A DNA stretch of 64,000 nucleotides from an uncultured Acetatifactor sp. GTDB taxonomy: Bacteria > Bacillota > Clostridia > Lachnospirales > Lachnospiraceae. The stretch covers positions 1 through 64,000 of the forward strand of contig CANQNT010000016.1 in assembly GCA_947625255.1 (NCBI GenBank). Reading direction: 5' to 3'. Positions within the stretch are counted from its first letter, which is position 1. Each line of letters begins with the position of its first letter. This document shows positions 45,566 to 47,593 of this stretch, one piece after another. The position numbers and the translations under genes are program-made. Below the pieces are notes generated by a model. The model was not told the origin of the DNA, made no database searches, and saw nothing but the letters and a program-made list of their open reading frames with translations.

Positions 45566-47470
45566 TTATACCAGATTCGCCGCGCCGATCATACCGGCAT
45601 TGTTGCCCAGGGTCGCTTCCGCCACTTCCGGAATCTGTCCCTTTTCACGGCCATAGCACTCTTCCTGAAGTCTCTGATTGATAGGGTCGAACAAATAAGC
45701 TCCCTGTCTGGAGACACCCCCGCCCACCAGAATCTTCTTAGGACGGAAAATGTTCACCAGATTGATGATCCCGGTCCCCAGCTTCTTGCGGTAATTTTCC
45801 ACCAGTGCCGTACAAACCGGATCTCCCTCCTTGGCCGCTTCGAAAATCAGTTCCACTCGGGGCTGCTCCAGATCGCCGCCGCATTTCTTCCAAAGCAAGG
45901 TCTCCGGATGCTCTTTCATGGCGCGCACGCCGTCCCTCCAGAGCGCCGTGGCGGAAGCATAAGCCTCTAAACAGCCCTTGCGGCCGCAGGTGCAGGGTTC
46001 TCCGTCCTCCACGATCACCATGTGACCGATCTCACAGCCGCCCACCATTTTCCCGGTAAAAATCCTGCCATCCAAAATCACGCCGCCTCCAACTCCGGTG
46101 CCGAGAGTCAACATGATCACGTCTTTCTCGCCCTTGGCGGCTCCTGCCACCGCTTCTCCAAGGGCGGCACAATCCGCGTCATTCGCCACATAGACCGGAA
46201 CGGGCAAATATTTCCCCAGCTCAGAAGCCAAAGGAACATTTTCCCAACGAATATTGTTGGAATAGATGACCACGCCGTTCTCACGGTCGATGGTGCCGGG
46301 CATACCGACTCCCGCGCCCACACATCTGACGATCGGAATCCCTTGCTCCTGGAGCAGCGCAACGCTGCCCTCTCCGATATCCTTGATCATGTTCTTCCAG
46401 TCGCGTTCCGCTCCCGTGGGAATGGAGGTCTGGGCAATGAGATTCTGCTCCGCGTCCACCAGACCGATCTTCACCGCGGTTCCGCCCACGTCGATCCCCA
46501 CACGCACCGGATCCTCCTGGGGGCCAATGGTGGTCACCAGCGCCTCGCAGCAGCCGCGCACTTCATATTCCCCGCTGCCAGCCGTTAAGAAGAAGCTGTC
46601 TCCTTTGCGGTAGGCGAAGGTTTCCCTGCCACAGTGAAGCAGACCGCTTCCCTCCAGGAAAAGGATGCTGACAAAGGAATCCGTTCCCGCAAAGCCCTTT
46701 TGAGACTTCGTCCCATCTCCGTCCAAAGATAATTTATCCACGACGAAATAATCACAGCTGGCCACATGAGGACCGCTATTCTCCCGCTTTACCACCGGCC
46801 CGCGATTGGTCACGTCCAGGGCCTTGGCCACATGAAGCTCACGCCTCTTGCCGTCCTTGCCTACACGGCCATAATCATATACCCGATATGTCACGTTGGA
46901 ATTCTGCTGAATCTCCGCGATCACGATGTCCTTGCCAATGGCGTGGATGGTTCCCGCCTCGATAAAGAACACATCTCCCTTGTGGACGGGCACCGCGTTC
47001 AAAACCTCCAGCAGCGTGTCCTCCGCGATCCTGCGCTCAAATTCCTCCAGGCTGATCTCCTTTTGGAACCCATAATAAAGAAAAGCGCCTTCTTTGCAGT
47101 CACAAATGACCCACATCTCCGTCTTGCCGTACTGTCCCTCATTTTTCAGGGCATACTGATTGTCGGGGTGTACCTGAATCGACAGATTGTCCCTGGCGTC
47201 AATGAGCTTGATCATAATCGGGAAATCCCGGAACCTCCTGCAGTTCTCGCCCAAGACTCCTTTTCCCTCCGCAGCAATATATTCCGCCAAAGTCTTGCCC
47301 GCGTATGGTCCGTTCTGAATTCTGGACGGGCCGTCCGGATGGCAGGACAGTTCCCAGCTTTCCGCCAGGACATCGCCATCATACTGCTTATGATATTCTT
47401 CCACCAGACGATGACCTCCCCAGATATAATCCTTAAAACTGGGGACCAATTGTAAAATTCCCATGACCAC
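45566..47470 (-). CDS. Fused class I mannose-6-phosphate isomerase and ROK-family sugar kinase
   Basis: N-term PMI (FKDYIWGGHRL, VQVHPDN-type IQVHPDNQYA, GDVFFIEAGTIHAIG) then ROK (RVGIDVGGTAVKIGLVD, NDADCAALGEAVAGAAKG, LGTGVGGGVILDGRIFTG, CTCGRKGCLEAYAS) in one continuous frame. Confidence 0.93.
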   Translation of the reverse strand: MVMGILQLVPSFKDYIWGGHRLVEEYHKQYDGDVLAESWELSCHPDGPSRIQNGPYAGKTLAEYIAAEGKGVLGENCRRFRDFPIMIKLIDARDNLSIQVHPDNQYALKNEGQYGKTEMWVICDCKEGAFLYYGFQKEISLEEFERRIAEDTLLEVLNAVPVHKGDVFFIEAGTIHAIGKDIVIAEIQQNSNVTYRVYDYGRVGKDGKRRELHVAKALDVTNRGPVVKRENSGPHVASCDYFVVDKLSLDGDGTKSQKGFAGTDSFVSILFLEGSGLLHCGRETFAYRKGDSFFLTAGSGEYEVRGCCEALVTTIGPQEDPVRVGIDVGGTAVKIGLVDAEQNLIAQTSIPTGAERDWKNMIKDIGEGSVALLQEQGIPIVRCVGAGVGMPGTIDRENGVVIYSNNIRWENVPLASELGKYLPVPVYVANDADCAALGEAVAGAAKGEKDVIMLTLGTGVGGGVILDGRIFTGKMVGGCEIGHMVIVEDGEPCTCGRKGCLEAYASATALWRDGVRAMKEHPETLLWKKCGGDLEQPRVELIFEAAKEGDPVCTALVENYRKKLGTGIINLVNIFRPKKILVGGGVSRQGAYLFDPINQRLQEECYGREKGQIPEVAEATLGNNAGMIGAANLV

Positions 47471-47593
47471 TCCTCCTTTTCGATACTCTCACTACTTCCA
47501 TATTACAATAGGTTTCCTAAATCTTCAAGCTTTTTCCGCCCTTTCCGAACCGGCATTCCAGACACAGCTTTCCAGACACCAACCACCGCCCAT

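Follow-up and report, generated by a model that had tools for sequence, protein, structure and literature searches.

A class I mannose-6-phosphate isomerase fused to a ROK sugar kinase in Clostridia, and the apparent decay of the kinase in related fusions

The fusion gene and its two halves

The window (the whole stretch of DNA that was analysed, 64,000 nt) contains an open reading frame on the minus strand at 45566-47470 that has 634 codons from a GTG and zero internal stops. The encoded protein consists of an N-terminal class I mannose-6-phosphate isomerase (PMI) and a C-terminal ROK sugar kinase, separated by about eight residues. The features of the gene are listed below (residues numbered from the GTG).

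47471..47478, minus strand: Shine-Dalgarno AAGGAGGA, read directly; 7 nt to the ATG, counted from GGAGG
45566..47464, minus strand: PMI-ROK fusion gene from the preferred start ATG 47464 (632 aa), the same start as in the congeners L160 and L161
46532..47455, minus strand: class I PMI domain, residues 6-313 (Pfam and NCBIfam profiles); the B. subtilis PMI, PDB 1qwr, matches in sequence (E=5.9e-57) and fold (TMt 0.88-0.89)
47159..47176, minus strand: QVHPDN, PMI metal ligands Gln and His, residues 99-104
47111..47128, minus strand: GKTEMW, PMI catalytic Lys and metal-ligand Glu, residues 115-120
46937..46960, minus strand: EAGTIHAI, PMI active-site motif, residues 171-178
46502..46531, minus strand: junction or linker TIGPQEDPVR, residues 314-323, of equal length in L031, L160, and L161; AlphaFold2 pLDDT block mean 88
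45569..46501, minus strand: ROK kinase domain, residues 324-634 (Pfam ROK, 231 bits; fold match to 3vgk)
46478..46498, minus strand: GIDVGGT, ATP phosphate and Mg motif, residues 325-331 (D327, T331)
46166..46183, minus strand: NDADCA, sugar-binding N430 and catalytic base D431; the corresponding D105N variant of Plesiomonas NagK (PsNagK) is inactive (PMC10031466)
46082..46108, minus strand: TLGTGVGGG, second phosphate loop, residues 455-463 (T458)
45965..46036, minus strand: EIGH...CTCGRKGCLE, the ROK zinc motif, with sugar-binding E480, H483, and E502 and zinc ligands H483, C493, C495, and C500

The true start is probably ATG 47464, which gives 632 aa, because a strong Shine-Dalgarno (AAGGAGGA, 47478-47471) precedes it and the proteins aligned from the congeners L160 and L161 have this same length. 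The alternative start, GTG 47470, directly abuts the Shine-Dalgarno. The initial annotation described a complete class I PMI that runs into a complete ROK kinase through GPQEDPVRVG. This description holds, as both domains were found with Pfam and NCBIfam profiles and the linker GPQEDP occupies residues 316-321 in the sequence ...VTTI-GPQEDP-VRVGIDVGGT... across the junction. At the junction, an AGGAGG followed after 5 nt by a GTG (V322; window 46505-46525) resembles a relict ROK start. Separate translation of the ROK from this GTG was rejected as the codon is unconserved, being GTC in L031 and L161.

The PMI half matches PMI_typeI_cat at residues 6-107 and the MPI cupin at residues 236-313. 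TIGR00218 (manA) scores 150.9 bits against a cut-off of 116.2 and PF20511 scores 53.6 against a cut-off of 22. The three PMI motifs (QxHP, GKTE, and GTxHA) are all present. The ROK half scores 231 bits with PF00480 (cut-off 22.9) and its fold matches 3vgk, a ROK glucokinase, at TMt 0.89-0.91 and 2qm1 at TMt 0.85-0.88. The ROK glucokinase subfamily profile TIGR00744 reaches only 247.1 bits, below its curated cut-off of 260.35.

The roles of the ROK residues were assigned from the structures of GNE (PMC2742894) and PsNagK (PMC10031466). Mg-binding D327, phosphate-binding T331 and T458, sugar-binding N430, E480, H483, and E502, the base D431, and all four zinc ligands are present. The GH, nine residues, and CTCGRKGCLE of the window protein agree with the ROK zinc motif GHx9-11CxCGx2G(C/H)xE (PMC2742894). 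At columns with at least 95% conservation among 32 free ROKs, the window protein shows two differences, neither of which falls in the ATP, sugar, or zinc class. The AlphaFold2 model of the fusion, built from an alignment of 34 relatives, has a mean pLDDT of 91.7 and a pTM of 0.78. Both predicted folds are confirmed by this model, and both domains are complete within a single chain in a GNE-like layout of isomerase and ROK.

Conservation, distribution, and origins of the fusion

The fusion was found in four of the 138 genomes of the window's genus, the window's own genome counted. The other three (G1177, G1180, and G1182) share the in-frame fusion and its junction at 77-79% identity over residues 2/3-634, which rules out an assembly or frameshift artefact joining two genes, one of the two outcomes that the initial annotation had named as fatal to it. 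L031 (GTDB contigs) and G1180 have an identical fusion protein. All four fusions are preceded by a NUDIX gene, and MinC/MinD-like genes come next; G1177 further shares with the window the MATE and S1-protein genes that follow. The fusion gene occupies a conserved chromosomal site, and the shared neighbours together with the presence of the fusion in four genomes of the genus indicate vertical inheritance within part of it. The pairwise dN/dS between congeners is 0.06-0.16 for ROK and 0.04-0.09 for PMI, with dS near saturation.

Most of the remaining congeners do not have a close fusion, and those examined have other PMIs or a PMI with other partners. PMI fusions to other partners in congeners are located at L051:5468-7798, L052:3688-5736, L053:1595-3943, L150:112-2460, and L151:115-2463. 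Other PMI partners are a GH1 beta-glucosidase (G016), an SGNH-type esterase (G003), and a mannose-1-phosphate guanylyltransferase-like protein (G007, G268, and G1201; 782 aa). In this group, PMI appears to be promiscuous in its choice of fusion partner.

The window's family (f1) was sampled with one or a few genomes per genus, and 14 of the 397 genomes have a full-length fusion, a count that includes G418 (inserts) and G596 (in-frame TAG in PMI). Beyond these 14, G439 and G489 have a truncated or internally deleted ROK. In G272 (L139:5880-6863), the PMI ends with SVRIGIDII and a stop, matching the ROK start, which marks an 11-residue stub of a lost fused kinase; the next gene encodes a LacI-type regulator. 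In other families, the fusion was found in 2 of 58 genomes (f17), 8 of 21 (f208), and 1 of 115 (f201), and no fusion except the window was found in a phylum-wide sample of 399 at E<=1e-100. The thresholds detect fairly close fusions only, so these counts are lower bounds. The search for the same domain order elsewhere, which the initial annotation had advised, thus places the fusion scattered in Clostridia, in at least four families and with at least two origins.

The in-frame TAG of G596 (L130/L095) lies at the Gln of QVHP, and G358 (L140) has an in-frame stop between GQ and GKTEMW in PMI; both PMI genes are conserved in other respects, and each is a pseudogene or a MAG sequence error. The 695-aa fusion of G418 (L106:231-2318) has extra low-complexity inserts in its cupin and ROK parts. 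The reverse order, ROK-PMI, with another ROK subfamily (GGIEAGGTKMVCAV, fructokinase-like) is present in G014 and G358 (L055:4958-6883 region and L140:3247-4203), and in G358 the ROK of the pair overlaps the PMI start.

The ROK tree groups 17 f1-type fusions in one clade (100/100) and the f17 pair in another. The f208 pair is sister to the unfused ROK of G1029/L119 (100/99), which in G1029 lies 23 bp downstream of a PMI. A single origin of all fusions was rejected (p-AU 0.012 for ROK and 0.0007 for PMI), which argues for at least two fusion events. One origin for the f1-type and f17 fusions was not rejected on ROK (p-AU 0.48), and these two may share one origin. Losses also nest inside the fusions in the PMI tree, and no ROK remnant was found at the unfused PMIs L117 (G187) and L105 (G470) that are nested near fusions, so these two lend no support to a loss. 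Such fusions were plausibly born by loss of the stop between neighbouring PMI and ROK genes. Adjacent unfused PMI-ROK pairs are present at L054, L061, L062 (family f8), and L119, and this step from pair to fusion is plausible because such neighbours also occur in family f8.

The ATP site in related fusions

The ATP site is kept in 12 of the 21 full-length fusions first compared and in six further f208 members; all eight f208 members have an intact kinase. Nine full-length fusions of the window's own clade have lost it (G554, G541, G498, G596, G654, G504, G667, G418, and G1346). The conserved columns of these nine show losses in 43 of 90 cells of the ATP, Mg, and base class, in 0 of 63 cells of the sugar and zinc class, and in 29 of 306 other cells. 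Column permutation gives p=1.6e-4 for the excess of ATP losses, p=0.006 without the four columns used to recognise dead members, and p=0.037 for the sugar/zinc deficit alone, all of them optimistic since the sequences are related. The first Asp, the counterpart of PsNagK D6, is replaced by Ala in G554, and the base Asp by Asn in G498, G596, G418, and G1346. In PsNagK, D6N/A and D105N abolish activity (PMC10031466). Three more fusions (G439, G489, and G272) keep only a part or a stub of ROK.

The dead members differ in their substitutions, which points to several losses of the ATP site; on the poorly resolved tree, however, two changes suffice under parsimony. Intact pairs have ROK/PMI dN ratios of 1.05-2.0, and the ratio rises to about 1.9-3.1 where a pair includes a dead member. 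The dN/dS of ROK is 0.08-0.16 even in pairs with a dead member (dS saturated). This low ratio and the concentration of losses at the ATP site fit a history in which phosphorylation was lost while the fold and the sugar pocket stayed under constraint. The type of locus, with GH130 and PMM supplying mannose 1-phosphate, was rejected as a clean rule for kinase decay since the intact L123 and L126 share the kind of mannan operon in which the dead L124, L128, and L131 lie.

The ATP site of the kinase has thus decayed repeatedly in the wider clade, with the sugar/zinc site and PMI retained, and this specific loss, seen in relatives, is the more surprising result of this work. Kinase activity appears to be dispensable in the window's clade, because nine related fusions have dead-looking kinases, a point that weighs against a working kinase in the window protein.

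Function of the window protein and comparison with known systems

With all catalytic motifs present in both halves, the window protein is most naturally read as a bifunctional kinase-isomerase. We lean towards a hexose, probably mannose, kinase-PMI. The C-terminal ROK would transfer phosphate from ATP-Mg to O6 of a free hexose, with mannose the most likely substrate and glucose a possible second one, and the N-terminal PMI would convert mannose 6-phosphate to fructose 6-phosphate, feeding glycolysis. The PMI half would also take mannose 6-phosphate from elsewhere, such as from a GH130 phosphorylase through mannose 1-phosphate and phosphomannomutase. Both activities and mannose as the kinase substrate are what we infer from the motifs and the genomic setting. 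The initial annotation had read the protein as a possible bifunctional entry enzyme for mannose or another hexose. The two complete enzymes bear this out for the window protein; mannose use does not follow from them, as the nearest profile is ROK glucokinase (below cut-off), and the reading does not extend to the whole clade, with its nine broken ATP sites and three truncated or vanished kinases.

No class I PMI other than that of the fusion was found in the window's genome, so the PMI half of the fusion is very likely functional. The same genome has a separate canonical glucokinase on C5 (TIGR00744, 290.6 bits against a cut-off of 260), and its other ROKs are a more distant copy on C3 and a marginal match. 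No EIID of the mannose-family PTS was found in this genome, while three control genomes gave matches, so free mannose would need a kinase. One GH130 mannoside phosphorylase adjoins ABC permease-like genes. These two observations suggest that mannose probably enters metabolism unphosphorylated, a route that would need both kinase and PMI, or as mannose 1-phosphate, which would need PMI.

Most f1 fusions are the last gene of a mannan operon that includes GH130, CE2-like and GDSL esterases, PGM/PMM, GH1, and GH113 or GH26; the intact L126 has PMM, GH1, GH113, and a CE2-like esterase alongside. The intact f208 fusions L157 and L158 adjoin a GH38 alpha-mannosidase. Four other f208 fusions are near GH43 genes, not mannosidases, which counts against the mannose reading. 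The neighbours in the window (NUDIX, MinD, MATE, and S1 protein) are uninformative on mannose. Glucose is equally open by sequence because the best profile of the ROK is the glucokinase subfamily (247 bits against the cut-off of 260). We are not aware of a sequence criterion by which mannose and glucose use can be told apart in these kinases.

The two halves may work in parallel and not in sequence. The ROK half would be a glucokinase that makes glucose 6-phosphate, and the PMI half would receive mannose 1-phosphate via mannose 6-phosphate and yield fructose 6-phosphate, such that one protein handles both products of (gluco)mannan phosphorolysis. The closest profile and the most similar ROK structures solved so far belong to glucokinases; many of the fusions stand last in a mannan operon that includes GH130, CE2-like, PMM, and GH1 genes; and the described mannan pathway yields glucose and mannose 1-phosphate (PMC6385246, PMC8262883). 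Against this, the window's genome already has a canonical glucokinase above cut-off, the fused ROKs form another clade, and mannose-releasing neighbours (GH38) suit mannose better. We consider this arrangement rather unlikely, though worth keeping in view.

The decayed relatives suggest other roles for the fused ROK. A disabled ROK has possibly been left as a sugar-sensing or structural module on PMI. We doubt, but would not dismiss, the broader proposal that Lachnospiraceae-type fusions repeatedly turned the kinase into an ATP-dead sugar-binding module that senses sugar and tunes PMI, with the window protein as the still-active state; by analogy, and equally doubtful, such a module would be an enzyme-attached counterpart of the change of use in Mlc and NagC. 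That part of the clade has a ROK that binds sugar and regulates or stabilises PMI, the window protein being an active, ancestor-like form, is improbable as an account of this locus. The contrast between ATP-site and sugar/zinc losses, the match of the decayed Asp positions to inactivating sites of PsNagK (PMC10031466), and the binding of sugar by ROK repressors without a need for kinase activity speak for it, but the window protein has an intact ATP site, G439, G489, and G272 show that ROK can shrink or vanish, and kinship makes the p-values optimistic. A neutral, accidental fusion whose kinase is of little use and drifts out in many lineages would explain the raised ROK/PMI dN in pairs with dead members, the truncations, and the stub of G272. 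It is very improbable, as the losses are centred on the ATP site, the zinc and sugar site is untouched, full-length frames are retained, ROK dN/dS is low (dS saturated), and the congeners and eight f208 members have an intact kinase.

For the window protein, we return to the kinase-PMI reading. The gut mannan pathway releases mannose 1-phosphate, glucose, and some mannose, and the phosphorylation of mannose has been ascribed to a hexokinase without an assigned gene (PMC6385246, PMC8262883). The fused ROK could be that hexokinase, or a glucokinase for the co-released glucose. The window fusion is a candidate for this kinase step and carries, on the same polypeptide, the isomerase for the step that follows. 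A natural series is also available within the family, running from gene pair through active, ATP-dead, and truncated fusions to a stub, which makes it testable whether a ROK retained without ATP chemistry has turned into a sugar sensor for the attached enzyme.

No publications on a PMI-ROK fusion or a ROK pseudokinase were found in a literature search; the fusion is a variant of known fusions (GH1-PMI, GNE, and AgaSK). In the glucomannan operon of Bacillus subtilis, gmuE encodes a ROK kinase and gmuF encodes a PMI. Both enzyme families thus stand side by side in mannan use there, but as separate proteins, in reverse gene order, and with another ROK subfamily.

The GH1-PMI fusion of Roseburia intestinalis (ROSINTL182_05469/70), in a mannan locus, is similar in having PMI within a fusion protein of a gut Firmicute that converts mannose 6-phosphate to fructose 6-phosphate. 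PMI activity was shown for one half, and the partner is a GH1 domain without detected activity and not a kinase (PMC6385246). AgaSK of Ruminococcus gnavus, an alpha-galactosidase-sucrose kinase, also joins a sugar-degrading enzyme to a sugar kinase in a gut Firmicute, with another hydrolase and another sugar (PMC7688924). Human GNE (UDP-GlcNAc 2-epimerase/ManNAc kinase) has a sugar-converting enzyme N-terminal to ROK for consecutive steps, but its epimerase precedes the kinase step, its N-terminal fold is different, and it acts on amino sugars (PMC2742894). The ROK repressors Mlc, NagC, and Lmo0178 share the ROK fold and the zinc motif, and their phosphorylation-independent response to sugar parallels the ATP-dead fusions; they have a DNA-binding domain in place of PMI, whereas the window protein is a kinase by motif.
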